Assembly (NCBI RefSeq): GCF_900078335.1
Contig: NZ_FKBR01000018.1
Coordinates: 1 to 64,000, forward strand
Direction of reading: 5' to 3'
Length of the DNA: 64,000 nucleotides
Source of the DNA: Bordetella trematum
GTDB lineage: Bacteria > Pseudomonadota > Gammaproteobacteria > Burkholderiales > Burkholderiaceae_B
In this document: in pieces, positions 919 through 9,396 of the stretch
How positions within the stretch are numbered: the first letter of the stretch is position 1
How the letters are laid out: each line of letters opens with the position of its first letter
Notes under the pieces: generated by a model
The model's input: the letters and a program-made list of their open reading frames with translations, nothing else
What the model was told of the DNA's origin: nothing
Database searches by the model: none
Position numbers and translations under genes: made by a program

Positions 919-947
919 TTGAATCAAAGCGATACTGCTGGTATCAT
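919..947 (+). promoter_or_regulatory. Sigma-70-type promoter of the retron
   Basis: The -35 hexamer TTGAAT (919-924), a 17-base spacer and the -10 hexamer TATCAT (942-947) predict a start near 953-954. That is exactly where the a1 arm of the retron noncoding RNA begins. The coincidence between promoter geometry and RNA boundary supports both calls. Confidence 0.7.
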
Positions 948-952
948 AGTTT

Positions 953-1092
953 TGGCCCATAAGCAGATTTTTTTGCCATTGTTTCGTGGCAAGTGACAAC
1001 AACGGCAGGAGCATTGCTCCTGTACGCCCCATAATCCCTAGTAGTTGACTGGGATATATCCATTGCATACGCTTAGGAGTGCTTGTGGGCCA
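953..1092 (+). ncRNA. Retron msr-msd noncoding RNA, Ec67-like
   Basis: The ends of the RNA form a 13-bp a1/a2 helix: TGGCCCATAAGCA (953-965) pairs with TGCTTGTGGGCCA (1080-1092), with a single G-U wobble. The base after a1, G966, is in the position of the branching guanosine. The msr hairpin is TTGCCA/TGGCAA (973-978/987-992). A second hairpin, CAGGAGC/GCTCCTG (1006-1012/1016-1022), opens the putative msd, and a third pairs 1034-1042 with 1048-1055. From memory, three short words match the Ec67 (Retron-Eco2) RNA at equivalent places: GCAGATTT at the branch, GGCAGGAG at the msd 5' end, and AGGAGTGC at a2. By that analogy the template is about 1004-1078, giving an msDNA of roughly 75 nucleotides. 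The a2 arm ends 17 bases before the reverse transcriptase start codon. Confidence 0.82.
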
Positions 1093-1109
1093 CCCATCCC
1101 CCTCCCTTT

Positions 1110-2813
1110 ATGACACAATTAAAAAAACTTAAAGCGGCCAAAGATATTTACGATATTTCTACCTTGTTGAATTACAAGGCAGGAAAATTGTCTTATATTT
1201 TGTATGTCATTGATGAATCTGATAAATACTCATCTTTTGAAATACCGAAGAAGGGTGGTGGCACTAGAACAATAAAATCACCAATCCCTAAGCTTAAGCG
1301 TCTACAAAAGAATCTTTCTAATTTATTGCAGAACTGCCTAGATGAACTGCGATCAGAAAATAGTTATGTTGATCCCATGTCGCATGGATTTGAGAAAAAA
1401 AGAAACATAATTACAAACGCAGAGGTTCATAGAGCGAAGCGCTATATTTTTAATATTGACATTAAAGATTTTTTTGGGTCAATAAATTTTGGTAGGGTGC
1501 GTGGGTTTTTCATAAAAGACAATCGGTTTGAACTTGATCCAAAGATAGCAACCATAATTGCACAGATATGTTGCCACGAAAACTCGTTGCCACAAGGAAG
1601 TCCTTGCTCTCCTGTTATATCTAATATAATTGGACATATTTTAGATGTGCGATTACTATCTTTAGCCATTAAAAATGGTTGCTCTTACACTCGCTATGCT
1701 GACGACATAACCTTTTCAACAAACAAAAAAAAATTTCCTTCTTCCATAGCAGCCAAAGATGATGAGGGGCATGGATGGAGTGTCGGAAAAGAATTATCTG
1801 ATATATTGAAAACAAATAAGTTTTCTGAGAATAAAAATAAAACCAGAATGCAATACAAAACATCCAGACAAAGCGTTACTGGTTTGGTTGTGAATAAAAA
1901 AATAAACGTTAGATCAGAGTATAGAAAGCAAGTTCGAGCTATGGTGCATAGCCTTTTTTCAAAAGGAACCTTTTTTATCCCAAAAGCAGGGGTTGCACCA
2001 ATGGACGAGTTTCCTGAGGGAACGCTGAATCAGTTGCATGGAATGCTTGGATTTATTGATAGCATCGACCAAAACAACGTTCTTAGGCAGGGACTTGAGG
2101 CAGCAAGCATCACGCAAAAAGAAAAAACATATAGAAAATTTCTTCTTTACAAGGATTTCTATCTATCTACGAGACCTATAATTCTTTGCGAAGGAAAGAC
2201 AGATAATATTTATCTGAAATGTGCTATTAAAAGTCTGGCTGGTCAACATCAATTGCTTGGGGAGAGGGTTGGTGTCGATAGTTTTAAAATGAAAGTCAGG
2301 TTTTATAAATATGCTGAAACCAGTACGGGCCGGATACTGGGCTTGAGTGGTGGTACTGGAGATTTTCCGAAGTTTATTAATTCTTATTTGAGCGGAATAA
2401 GTAAATTTACAGCATTGGAACTAAATCATCCAGTTATCATGATTATAGATAATGATTCTGGTGCGAAGGGAATCTACTCTAAGTTAAGGGAAATTCTAAA
2501 TAGGCAAATTTCCCCTGCTGAGGAATATATATATGCTGGGGAAAATTTATATATAGTACCTACCCCAATAGCTAAACATGGTCAACACTCCATGATTGAA
2601 GATTGTTTTGATAAAGACACAAAAAAAATTTTGGTTGATGGGAAAAAATTTAATCCAGACGATAAAGCAAGCATAGATATGTTTTATGGGAAATCTGTTT
2701 TTGCAACTCAGGTAATTGAAAGATTCTCTGAAAAAATCAACTTTAACGGATTCTCAGTTTTTTTATCTAGAATTGAATCGGCAATAAATCACTTTCATAA
2801 TATGAAAGGTTAG
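1110..2813 (+). CDS. Retron reverse transcriptase with fused C-terminal TOPRIM domain
   Basis: A 567-residue protein; I chose ATG 1110 because the upstream in-frame TTG at 1083 lies inside the a2 arm of the RNA. The N-terminal half is a retron RT. It carries the retron-specific NAxxH motif (NAEVH 103-107, region X), catalytic DIKDFF (117-122), QGSP (162-165), YADD (196-199) and VTG (256-258, region Y). The C-terminal part has TOPRIM hallmarks: the Glu in ILCEGKTD (E361) and the DxD in IIDNDSG (D447, D449). RT-TOPRIM fusion is the architecture of retron Ec67, and the length is close to its RT. Retrons of this kind are known or proposed anti-phage systems in which the msDNA-RT complex restrains a toxic effector, here probably the TOPRIM nuclease domain. 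Base composition is far more AT-rich than in the core genes, which indicates transfer. Confidence 0.93.
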   Translation: MTQLKKLKAAKDIYDISTLLNYKAGKLSYILYVIDESDKYSSFEIPKKGGGTRTIKSPIPKLKRLQKNLSNLLQNCLDELRSENSYVDPMSHGFEKKRNIITNAEVHRAKRYIFNIDIKDFFGSINFGRVRGFFIKDNRFELDPKIATIIAQICCHENSLPQGSPCSPVISNIIGHILDVRLLSLAIKNGCSYTRYADDITFSTNKKKFPSSIAAKDDEGHGWSVGKELSDILKTNKFSENKNKTRMQYKTSRQSVTGLVVNKKINVRSEYRKQVRAMVHSLFSKGTFFIPKAGVAPMDEFPEGTLNQLHGMLGFIDSIDQNNVLRQGLEAASITQKEKTYRKFLLYKDFYLSTRPIILCEGKTDNIYLKCAIKSLAGQHQLLGERVGVDSFKMKVRFYKYAETSTGRILGLSGGTGDFPKFINSYLSGISKFTALELNHPVIMIIDNDSGAKGIYSKLREILNRQISPAEEYIYAGENLYIVPTPIAKHGQHSMIEDCFDKDTKKILVDGKKFNPDDKASIDMFYGKSVFATQVIERFSEKINFNGFSVFLSRIESAINHFHNMKG

Positions 2814-2846
2814 TTGGTGTATGAGATTTTGGTGTCAACAAAGCGT

Positions 2847-2884
2847 CAACCGCATAGCAAAACATAGCATATGCATAGCGGTTG
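2847..2884. repeat. Inverted repeat with CATAGC repeats between retron and tRNA scar
   Basis: CAACCGC (2847-2853) and GCGGTTG (2878-2884) flank a 24-base core with three CATAGC words and the palindrome GCATATGC. It may be the retron transcript end or part of the recombination region next to the tRNA fragment. No function can be assigned. Confidence 0.4.
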
Positions 2885-2945
2885 AAGAATGACCTAACAA
2901 ATTGATTGCAAAGACAAAGCACCATCAATGCGTTGCCATCAAACT

Positions 2946-2992
2946 GAATCATAATCCGCAGGTCCCCTGTTCGAATCAGGGATGCGCCACCA
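2946..2992 (+). pseudogene. 3' fragment of tRNA-Met(CAU): attachment-site scar
   Basis: From the 3' end, the segment contains CCA (2990-2992), discriminator A, the acceptor strand ATGCGCC (2982-2988), a perfect T-arm (CCCTG 2965-2969, loop TTCGAAT, CAGGG 2977-2981), variable loop AGGTC, the anticodon 3' strand TCCGC (2955-2959) and an anticodon loop with CAT at 2950-2952. Upstream of about 2946 the anticodon 5' strand is wrong and no D-arm or 5' acceptor exists. It is therefore a displaced 3' half, as left at the far end of an element integrated in a tRNA gene. The intact tRNA should lie left of the window. Confidence 0.8.
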
Positions 2993-3000
2993 GAGAATTC

Positions 3001-3033
3001 AAGGCCCTCACTTCGGTGAGGGCCTTTTGTTTT
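3001..3033 (+). terminator. Intrinsic terminator of the tRNA locus
   Basis: AAGGCCCTCAC (3001-3011), a TTCG tetraloop and GTGAGGGCCTT (3016-3026) are followed by TTGTTTT. Its position 8 bases after the CCA end is that of a native tRNA terminator, so sequence to the right was originally host flank. Confidence 0.85.
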
Positions 3034-3525
3034 GCTCCGCAACTACCCCAGTGCTCCGCATACTATGAAGTCAGGCGGTACATCCACAAGAAGCTGAAAA
3101 ATTGGGGCTGAAAAGCTCATCGTCAAAAAGAAGAAAGCTCCGCAGGCCAAGGTCGCGTACAACACCCTCACCGGCAGCGGCGAGGCAGTTCCAGAATTTG
3201 AGGCCATCATTGGCCGCTGAGACCTGACCAGTGCAATGACCAAAGCAGACAGCATGAGCAGGGCTGTATGGACCCAGCAGAACCTGCTCAGGTTGAGCAG
3301 CTAATGAAAATTGCGCTGTGCCAGTAGAGTTAGACGTTATTTGCCGACGGATCTCGGCTACGCCTTGTCACTGCCTCAGTCGAGATAGAACGTATTCTGG
3401 ACATCTTGGGCAGTCAGCCCAAATAGATCGCTGCTTGCCCGGGATCTCACACACAACAGATAATGAGATGGCTGCAGCACGGGAGAACCGCAAGAAAAAT
3501 CGGCATCTGAAGGAGCCAGATCAGG
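3034..3525. other. Degenerate region without an intact gene
   Basis: No convincing gene is present. Short coding-like runs occur in different frames. One ends with VRRYIHKKLKNWG at 3111. A lysine-rich run continues in another frame to the stop at 3220. A run at 3349-3426 has a transposase-like tail. The pattern suggests one or more decayed genes at the edge of the integrated element. Confidence 0.45.
3349..3426 (+). pseudogene. Possible C-terminal remnant of a transposase
   Basis: The frame reads RLRLVTASVEIERILDILG before a stop. It recalls the xVIxRILxHLG segment near the C-terminus of IS91/ISCR-type transposases. The resemblance is from memory, covers only about 20 residues, and nothing upstream in frame is open, so this is weak. 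Confidence 0.25.
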
Positions 3526-6928: not shown

Positions 6929-7597
6929 TCAACGGGCAGGCTTCAGCGTATGCAGATCAAGCAGCGTGAAATGGCCGTCGTTACGCCAGCCGCCGGTGTC
7001 GATATAAAGGACGTTGCCCAGTTGCGTCATGCGCGGCAGGGTCAGATGCCCGTGCACCACGGCGCGCACATGACGAATGGGCTGATGGTATTGGCTGCGG
7101 TAGCGGGCCATGGACCAAAGACAGGTTTCCTCGTCCTCGACGCTGAATCCCCCCGTATGGGCGACGCGCCAATCGTCATAAGGGAAGTCGGCGTGCACCA
7201 ACCCGACCGGCCCCAGGCGGGTCTCGACCTCGATGAGCAGCGGCAAGGCGCGCAACTGCCGGCCAAGCTCCAGCTGTTCAGGCGTATCCAGGAGATCCAG
7301 CCATTGCCCGCCATGCCTCACATGGTCGATGTCCGGCACGGGGTCGCCCAAGGCCCTGCGCCACGCCAGCTGCTCGTGGTTGCCGCTCACGGCATGAAAC
7401 CACGGGTAGCGCAGCCACTCCATCACCCGATGCGATTCAGGCCCGCGATCGACCAGGTCGCCCACGGCGAACAAGCGATCCGTTTCTGCGGCAAAGCCGA
7501 TCCGGCGCAAGGCGGCCTCCAGCTTGCCGAAGCAGCCATGGATATCCCCCACGGCGATATCGCGCCCTGCCTGGTTGCACGAAAACTGCTGCAGCAT
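6929..7597 (-). CDS. PP-type metallophosphoesterase (protein phosphatase), copy B
   Basis: A 222-residue protein when started at ATG 7597. It has GDIHG (17-21), GDLVDRG, GNHE, HADFPYDDW and HGH, the full set of dimetal phosphoesterase motifs. It differs from copy A (23-688) by GNHE instead of GNHD and is roughly 60% identical by eye. It is the resident core copy, judging by its GC-rich composition and neighbours. The role is probably regulatory dephosphorylation of proteins; diadenosine tetraphosphatase activity of a related fold is a less likely alternative because of the short length. Confidence 0.87.
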   Translation of the reverse strand: MLQQFSCNQAGRDIAVGDIHGCFGKLEAALRRIGFAAETDRLFAVGDLVDRGPESHRVMEWLRYPWFHAVSGNHEQLAWRRALGDPVPDIDHVRHGGQWLDLLDTPEQLELGRQLRALPLLIEVETRLGPVGLVHADFPYDDWRVAHTGGFSVEDEETCLWSMARYRSQYHQPIRHVRAVVHGHLTLPRMTQLGNVLYIDTGGWRNDGHFTLLDLHTLKPAR

Positions 7598-7836
7598 GGC
7601 CGGGCGACACGAAGAATCAGAATTGGAAAGAAGGTTCACAGTGGGGCAAGTTACCGAGCGCGGCGCAGACCTGTCAACCGGCATGCCGCAACGCAACAGG
7701 AAAGGCGGCTGGCAACGGCCCCATGCCGGCGCATCAGAGTGGACCTGTCCGCAAACGCGCAGTCTTTCTATCATGGCCTCTTTACCTCGCGCGCGGCGTC
7801 CCCCGCGCCTGTCCAACGCAAACCACGGATCTACCC

Positions 7837-9396
7837 ATGAACGGTGCTGATAGTCTTTGCGATACCCTGCTTGCCAACGATGTCGATGTCTGCTTTGCCA
7901 ATCCTGGCACCTCCGAGATGCATTTCGTCGCGGCACTGGATCGCAAACCGCGCATGCGCTGCGTTCTGGGCCTGTTCGAAGGCGTCGTGACCGGCGCCGC
8001 CGATGGCTATGCGCGCATGGCCGACAAACCGGCCGCCACGTTGCTGCACCTGGGCCCCGGCCTGGGCAATGGTCTGGCCAATCTGCATAATGCCAAGCGC
8101 GCGCGCACGCCCATGGTCAATGTCGTGGGCGATCACGCCACCTACCACGTTCGGTACGACGCGCCGCTCACCAGCGACGTCGAAGGCGTGGCGCAACCGA
8201 TGTCGCATTGGGTGCACCGCAGCCTGACGGCGCAGGCGCTGTCGGCAGACACCGCCGAAGCGGTGCGCATTGCCCGCCAGGCGCCGGGCAACATCGCCAC
8301 CCTGATCCTGCCGGCCGACGCGGCCTGGGGCGAGCTGCCCGCCAACTCCCCTGCTCCGGTCGTTGCTGCGCAAGAAGCAGCCGCTCCCGCCGATGCGGCC
8401 ATGCTGCGCGCGGCCGCCCAGGCCATTCGCAGCGGCAAGCGCACGGCCTTGCTGTTGGGCGGCACGGCCCTGCGCGAGCCGGCGCTGTCGGTCGCCGGCC
8501 GTATCGCACAGGCCACCGGGGTGCGCCTGCTGTCGCCGACCTCGAACCGCCGCGTGCAGCGCGGATTGGGGCGTACGCCCGTCACCCGCATTCCCTACCC
8601 CGTCGACCAGGCGCTGGCTGCCCTGAATGACGTGCAACAACTGATCCTGGTCGGCGCCGCCGCCCCGGTCGCCTTCTTCGCCTATCCGGGCAAGCCCAGC
8701 CTGCTGGCCCCTCAGGAGCACGCCCCCATCGTGATGGCCACGCCCGAACAGGATCTGCTCCAGGCGCTGGAATGGCTGGCCGATGAACTGGGCGTGTCCC
8801 CCAGCGCGCCCGGCCTGCCCCCCGTCGAGATCGCCACCGAGATCCCGCGATCCGGTGCGCTCACCGGTGCAGCCGTATGCCTGATCACCGCCAGGCGACT
8901 GCCGGAGAACGCCATCGTTTGCGACGAATCGATCACGCAGGGGCGCGAATTCGGCATCAGCAATGCCGTTTCCGCCCCCCACGACTGGCTGCAACTGACC
9001 GGCGGCGCCATCGGTATCGGGCTGCCCATGGCCACCGGGGCCGCTGTCGCCTGCCCCGACCGCAAGGTCATCACCCTGCAGGCCGACGGCAGCGGCATGT
9101 ACACCGTGCAGGCGCTCTGGACCCAGGCCCGCGAGCATCTCGACTGTCTGACCATCGTGCTGGCCAACCGCTCATACGCCACACTGCACGGCGAGATGAA
9201 AAACGTCGGCGTGCAATCGCCCGGCCACAACGCGTTGCGCATGCTGGACATCCAGGATCCCAGCCTGAACTGGGTCCATCTGGCCGCGGGCATGGGCGTC
9301 GAGGCCGTCAGGGTCGACACTGTCGAAGCCTTTACCCAGGCACTGGAGCAAGGCCTGTCCCGCAAGGGGCCATATCTGATCGAAGCGCTGATCTGA
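7837..9396 (+). CDS. Thiamine diphosphate-dependent enzyme (acetolactate synthase / benzoylformate decarboxylase family)
   Basis: A 519-residue protein starting at ATG 7837. It has the three-domain layout of the family: an N-terminal pyrimidine-binding domain with the catalytic Glu in GLFEGVVTGAADGYARM (E48), a central domain, and a C-terminal pyrophosphate-binding domain with ADGSGMYTVQALW and the Asn of LANRSY. It is shorter than acetolactate synthase IlvB (about 570) and lacks its FAD-site signature, and no small subunit gene is adjacent. Such stand-alone enzymes are often annotated acetolactate synthase-like; a 2-oxoacid decarboxylase is equally possible. It is flanked by unrelated genes, so the substrate is open. 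Confidence 0.85.
   Translation: MNGADSLCDTLLANDVDVCFANPGTSEMHFVAALDRKPRMRCVLGLFEGVVTGAADGYARMADKPAATLLHLGPGLGNGLANLHNAKRARTPMVNVVGDHATYHVRYDAPLTSDVEGVAQPMSHWVHRSLTAQALSADTAEAVRIARQAPGNIATLILPADAAWGELPANSPAPVVAAQEAAAPADAAMLRAAAQAIRSGKRTALLLGGTALREPALSVAGRIAQATGVRLLSPTSNRRVQRGLGRTPVTRIPYPVDQALAALNDVQQLILVGAAAPVAFFAYPGKPSLLAPQEHAPIVMATPEQDLLQALEWLADELGVSPSAPGLPPVEIATEIPRSGALTGAAVCLITARRLPENAIVCDESITQGREFGISNAVSAPHDWLQLTGGAIGIGLPMATGAAVACPDRKVITLQADGSGMYTVQALWTQAREHLDCLTIVLANRSYATLHGEMKNVGVQSPGHNALRMLDIQDPSLNWVHLAAGMGVEAVRVDTVEAFTQALEQGLSRKGPYLIEALI

Follow-up and report, generated by a model that had tools for sequence, protein, structure and literature searches.

A type I-C (Ec67/Eco2-type) retron with an RT-Toprim fusion protein at a tRNA-Met island end in Bordetella trematum

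Results

The RT-Toprim protein and its relatives

The window, by which is meant the whole stretch of 64,000 nucleotides that was analysed (positions 1 to 64,000 of the forward strand of contig NZ_FKBR01000018.1, Bordetella trematum assembly GCF_900078335.1), carries a retron composed of a structured RNA and a single protein-coding gene, both on the forward strand. The gene (1110..2813) encodes an RT-Toprim fusion protein of 567 aa, identified through its ORF, PADLOC, NCBIfam and PDB matches and the protein alignment, with the boundary between the RT domain (approximately residues 1–345) and the Toprim domain (approximately residues 355–567) set by alignment with Eco2. The preferred start is the ATG at 1110; the alternative TTG at 1083 falls within the a2 arm of the RNA. 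The best PADLOC family was RT-Toprim_I-C (2.2e-226, 751 bits), and the top family of another type, RT-TIR_XII, reached about half that score (366 bits). The protein also scored 702 bits against the NCBIfam model NF038237 (retron_Ec67_fus), for which the curated cut-off is 450, while a phmmer search of the PDB matched residues 3–563 to the Retron Ec67/Eco2 chains 9i2f/9lm3 (5.7e-124). Pfam listed the RT domain alone and not the Toprim domain.

Relatives were pooled from genomes (80 of 402 kept) and from a viral collection (80 of 86 kept), giving a set of 134 proteins, 127 of them full-length, after three more without a start codon were dropped; removal of identical proteins and of second copies of one locus left a final alignment of 117 proteins, including that of the window. 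Full-length relatives occur in four of the 200 family genomes searched, counting the window's own, and one additional match among these genomes covers the RT part only. The NAxxH, QGSP, YADD and VTG motifs and the residues Glu361 and Asp447/Asp449 named in the original prediction were located at N103-A104-H107, Q162-GSP, Y196-ADD and V256-TG in the RT domain and at E361/G362/D365 and D447/D449 in the Toprim domain, to which E497 and K528 can be added, and the catalytic columns are invariant or nearly so. E361, G362, D365, D447, E497, K528, N103, H107, Q162, Y196, D198 and D199 are found in all 117 proteins; D449 is present in 116 of them and the VTG valine in 106.

Compared with Eco2, the window protein is the same RT-Toprim fusion from end to end at approximately 40% identity (measured on row L118 of the alignment), and F46, Y199–D202, E374, D378, D460/D462, E515 and K546 of Eco2 are all matched, with E374, D378, D460/D462, E515 and K546 corresponding to E361, D365, D447/D449, E497 and K528 of the window. 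The available text of the Eco2 study names the catalytic lysine as K562 (PMC12405507). Position 562 of the printed Eco2 PDB chain is Asp, not Lys, and the alignment indicates that the catalytic lysine is likely the invariant K546 (window K528), which is our own reading and not that of the paper. That text also reports S513 as needed in Eco2 (PMC12405507). A broken metal-B site was considered at the corresponding M495 of the window and was rejected, as this alignment column varies between C, A, D, S and M; at the preceding position, S494, 102 of the 117 proteins have Ser or Thr.

A quick tree of 48 RTs was constructed from 37 type I-C proteins, chosen from the 117, and 11 RTs of other types, nine of which were typed by PADLOC and two (L143 and L161) labelled from their likeness to L142 and L148. 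All 37 type I-C proteins lie on one side of a branch with an SH-aLRT support of 88, which is below the program's mark of 95, and the three long branches of the tree are all within the other types. The window RT groups with that of L011, a locus of the same genus (SH-aLRT 98). By profile, the closest single-gene retron RTs of other types are those of the RT-TIR (type XII) and RT-protease (type XI) retrons, which score about half as much as RT-Toprim_I-C for the window, are joined to effector domains other than Toprim and fall outside of the I-C group. The original prediction of an Ec67-like retron with an RT-TOPRIM fusion can thus be given a type, I-C, by protein profile and by the RNA model described below, with the RT tree in agreement; the retron RT profile search that it proposed returned RT-Toprim_I-C as best, and the RT phylogeny placed the RT inside the I-C group at the support of 88.

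The msr-msd RNA and the predicted msDNA

The RNA occupies 140 nt (953–1092) upstream of the gene and begins and ends with the inverted repeats a1 (953..965) and a2 (1080..1092), which pair with each other and were identified through an arm search and a covariance model; all 11 of the helix pairs change on both sides in relatives. Between the arms lie the predicted branching guanosine (966), which corresponds to rG15 in the Eco2 numbering given in the available text of PMC12405507 and belongs to an A-G column pair that is invariant in 53 aligned relatives, a single msr stem-loop (973..992; RSL in Eco2), supported by folding and by alignment to the model, with six of seven helix pairs changing on both sides in relatives, and the msd template (1004..1078). 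The predicted folding energy of the RNA is −58.6 kcal/mol (z = −4.94), a value equalled by none of 200 shuffles. As the original prediction had placed the retron at 953..2813, its limits were correct, with a1 starting at 953 and the ORF ending at 2813. A promoter-like site (919..947, forward strand; TTGAAT-17-TATCAT with a TG before the −10) matches the consensus at nine of 12 positions and ends 6 nt upstream of the RNA, but the region holds five such sites against a mean of 6.6 in shuffles, so that position is all that favors this one.

The same organization recurs in relatives. Of 115 upstream regions, including that of the window, 113 yielded arms with a score of 20 or more, against 15 of 115 mononucleotide shuffles, and 109 of the 115 scored above the best shuffled score of 27.0. 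A few of the 113 RNAs (e.g., L073, L070, L066 and L029) were wrongly trimmed by the arm search, which also scored L108 and L096 below the limit; all six were recovered by the covariance model. This model (R1) was built from 53 of 83 chosen RNAs, with the window and L011 outside of the 83, and the A-G after a1 and the GAG-T at a2 are invariant among the 53. With the window thus excluded from its construction, the model matched 954–1091 at 87 bits (E = 1.7e-20), the sole match in the 64 kb, and a search of the 4.4-Mb genome reported the window RNA as its only match (150 of 271 first-look candidates scored). Among 11 I-C loci given from outside of the alignment, which are not all such loci, the model matched nine and missed L138, which has room for the RNA, and L049, whose contig stops 84 bases short of the match; it matched none of 35 loci whose resemblance to the window is confined to the RT part. 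In the consensus structure, 99.1% of 1,056 cells are paired and 17 of 20 pairs show changes on both sides, figures which are favored by the alignment because the structure was drawn from it. With the partners slid as a control, 28–46% of cells were paired and both-side changes were seen in eight to 12 pairs. Among 500 shuffles, four attained 17 pairs with both-side changes and none attained the values of the four other measures. The matching msr-msd RNA reported upstream in the original prediction is therefore borne out by the a1/a2 pairing at 953–1092, the 87-bit match of a model built without the window, and covariation.

The plan of the RNA is that of Eco2: a1, the branching G, a single msr stem-loop, an msd starting with GGCAG and a GAG before a2. 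For Eco2, the available text describes a branch at rG15 and a 67-nt msd that starts with dT and ends with CTGCC (PMC12405507). Across 586 aligned residues, the protein of L118 shows no visible difference from the Eco2 PDB chain, and its RNA fits the Eco2 numbering as far as it is given in that text, the rule derived from it yielding 67 nt that end in CTGCC, as published. Applied to the window, the Eco2 rule predicts an msDNA of 75 nt, copied from A1078 back to G1004 and branched at G966, which would lie on the opposite strand, begin with T and end with CTGCC. The length agrees with the earlier estimate of about 75 nt, compares with 67 nt in Eco2, and falls amongst the 61 to 82 nt predicted by the same rule for 53 relatives. 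Predicted single-strand folds of the msd were uninformative, giving two stems for L118, where the available text of the paper has one long hairpin, and three for the window.

The tRNA-Met island

The GC content drops to ~37% at 1001–3000, compared to ~60–70% across most of the window, and the retron is followed by the 3′ 50 nt of a tRNA-Met(CAT) gene (2943..2992, forward strand; sharing 95% identity with the intact copy on contig C45), at which the tRNA finder called no gene and which is the attachment-site scar left where an island ends. Past the island, the first chromosomal sequence is the terminator of the tRNA-Met gene (3001..3026, forward strand), which follows tRNA-Met in three genomes (G036, G200 and G201). 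An empty site is present in G036, of the same genus, where the C45 flank is contiguous with window 2943–3042. In seven of 14 further genomes from the genus, the match continues beyond the tRNA and reaches the window's terminator; in six it stops at or near the tRNA, and in one it is absent. Based on the scar and the empty site, the retron is cargo of a tRNA-Met island with one end here and the other on C45, and the AT-rich island of the original prediction is upheld on composition. No Rfam family reached the gathering threshold anywhere in the window, and near the retron the only sub-threshold hit, suhB/mmgR at 27.7 bits against a threshold of 41 across the tRNA fragment and the terminator, was rejected as sequence resemblance.

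At the other end of the island, a gene for an AlpA-type regulator (L002 803–1156; Pfam Phage_AlpA, 4.5e-17) adjoins the intact tRNA-Met on C45. Regulators of this type are frequent on integrated islands. No integrase was recognized among the few ORFs scanned in the two visible pieces of the island. The window begins with an IS end (1–58). Further copies of this end open contigs C50, C19 and C12, with a second copy on C12, and the start of C45 (L002 1–60) has an IS end that is similar, though by eye not identical. With IS ends closing both island contigs, the middle of the island is probably hidden by IS copies at an assembly break.

Two metallophosphatase genes on the reverse strand, at 23–688 on the island and at 6929–7936, are 64% identical over 204 residues. 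The likeness of the island copy ends where the IS end begins, suggesting that its C-terminal end was cut off by the IS. The upstream phosphatase was considered as a partner of the retron and rejected, as among the loci compared its relatives occur only in those of the window's own genome. Nor is a location at tRNA ends claimed as a general rule for these retrons: a whole tRNA gene was found in nine of 60 scanned loci, and within 500 bases of the retron in three of the 60 (L026, L058 and L068).

The window retron thus differs in setting from Ec67, which sits in a prophage, and also from its nearest relative in the tree. L011 (genome G148) encodes a protein 60% identical to that of the window, with an equally short loop (see below) and an RNA matched by the model at 91.8 bits. 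It is located on contig C2, while the tRNA-Met gene of G148 is on C11, and, lying away from tRNA-Met, it was therefore acquired separately or has moved.

Departures from Eco2

According to the available text of the Eco2 study, the RT trimer is joined by a loop at 328–342 and R332A abolished defence, although the trimer is held mainly by msDNA and not by the loop, and R332A impaired assembly only partly (PMC12405507). This trimer-interface loop, including Arg332, is absent from the window protein, in which the segment I316–F344 has 29 residues against 45 in Eco2. Such a short segment is not peculiar to the window: it has 30 or fewer residues in 29 of the 117 proteins, and the R332 column is gapped in 93, which means that the absence of the loop bears on whether the complex is Eco2-like and not on membership in type I-C. 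The loop lies within a variable region, making its alignment uncertain, and the neighboring D331 and Y333 columns are gapped in 61 and 69 of the 117, respectively. Further, several contacts between the Toprim domain and the duplex are altered, with R555, K557 and K418 of Eco2 replaced by E537, F539 and T404, where the basic residues are not kept; K383 and H387, in contrast, correspond to K370 and K374.

Discussion

The locus is a complete-looking member of a known anti-phage family and is ordinary apart from the absence of the trimer loop. Its I-C identity, its catalytic residues and its RNA plan make an Eco2-type mechanism the most likely one, in which msDNA would restrain the Toprim RNase until disturbed by a phage, and we hold with high confidence the combined reading of a type I-C (Ec67/Eco2-type) retron that resides on a tRNA-Met island and works as Eco2 does. 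While the gene, its motifs, the RNA anatomy with its covariation, the placement of the RT and the island scar were established for this locus, we infer msDNA synthesis, RNase activity, autoinhibition, trigger and defence from Eco2. In the available text on Eco2, msDNA bound to the RT-Toprim protein keeps the Toprim RNase inactive and anti-phage defence was measured, with the ssDNA nuclease DenB indicated as the trigger by escape mutants, though DenB could not be directly assayed there (PMC12405507); tRNA cleavage is cited for Eco2 in the available text of a separate report (PMC12956279).

By analogy, the ends of the 140-nt RNA at 953–1092 would pair (a1/a2) and the RT-Toprim protein would bind the RNA, after which the RT domain would prime from the 2′-OH of G966 and copy from A1078 to G1004, leaving the 75-nt msDNA on the protein. 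Within this complex the Toprim domain, a putative metal-dependent RNase, would be inactive. A phage product that damages or removes the msDNA would then free the Toprim domain to cut RNA, and the infected cell would be stopped. The earlier reading of the TOPRIM domain as the effector gains support from the likeness to the solved Eco2, as described in the available text (PMC12405507).

The retron is probably functional. A decayed or silent unit, in which the anatomy is intact but the retron no longer works and persists as a remnant at the end of an IS-broken island, seems quite unlikely: the island is damaged, with the IS end cutting the neighboring phosphatase gene and no integrase recognized in the ORFs scanned, and visual inspection showed no obvious ribosome-binding site ahead of the ATG at 1110, but the ORF is open for 567 codons, the catalytic residues are kept, both arms of the RNA pair, and the relative in the same genus has retained the fusion and the RNA at 60% protein identity. 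A role for RT-Toprim outside of phage defence, such as island maintenance with the Toprim domain acting on cells that lose the island, is highly improbable. The retron is on an island and adjoins an attachment scar, a position in which addiction modules are also common. Against this role, Eco2 has the same set of domains and the same RNA plan and confers measured anti-phage defence, as reported in the available text (PMC12405507).

A retron of the Eco2 kind whose complex is built or switched differently in the absence of the trimer loop, with msDNA alone holding the oligomer or with a form other than a trimer, is possible, if on balance doubtful. The short I316–F344 segment, in the window and in relatives, and the widespread gap at R332 argue for it. 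Conversely, the Eco2 trimer is, by the available text, held mainly by msDNA (PMC12405507), so that loss of the loop need not alter assembly and a loop-less protein may form the same ring; the loop alignment in this variable region is uncertain, and the columns flanking R332 are gapped less often. The broader proposition, that the loop-less type I-C retrons, including that of the window, form a different complex that is held inactive and released otherwise than Eco2, is unlikely. Should it hold, one domain fusion and one RNA plan would serve two switches, possibly with different phage triggers. The reading preferred here remains the Eco2-type mechanism, though the published Eco2 architecture should not be assumed for all of type I-C.

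The alignment of 117 proteins separates the parts of Eco2 that are general, specifically the active sites, F46, the branching G and the GAG before a2, from those that are not, the trimer loop and several of the Toprim-duplex contacts, and makes it possible to test whether all of type I-C adopts the autoinhibited trimer published for Eco2. A literature search revealed no paper on the window locus or on loop-less type I-C retrons among the matches listed, as judged from titles and the starts of abstracts. The locus adds a well-defined Eco2-type retron on a genomic island, with a precise msDNA prediction (75 nt, branched at G966).

A palindromic intergenic element

Upstream of the retron, an intergenic element of ~150 nt (739–890) consists of a stem formed by TGTCAAGG...CCTTGACA, followed by a 13-bp hairpin. 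An Rfam search of the element returned no match at E up to 1. It is present as a single copy in the window's genome and has matches at 60–95% identity, many over the first half only, in 60 of 72,556 plasmid records. As a guess, the element may be a single-strand promoter (Frpo-like) or a regulator site. Eight copies occur in pP33-1 of P. aeruginosa and seven in pK1219-2 of C. koseri, located between listed genes and in both orientations.
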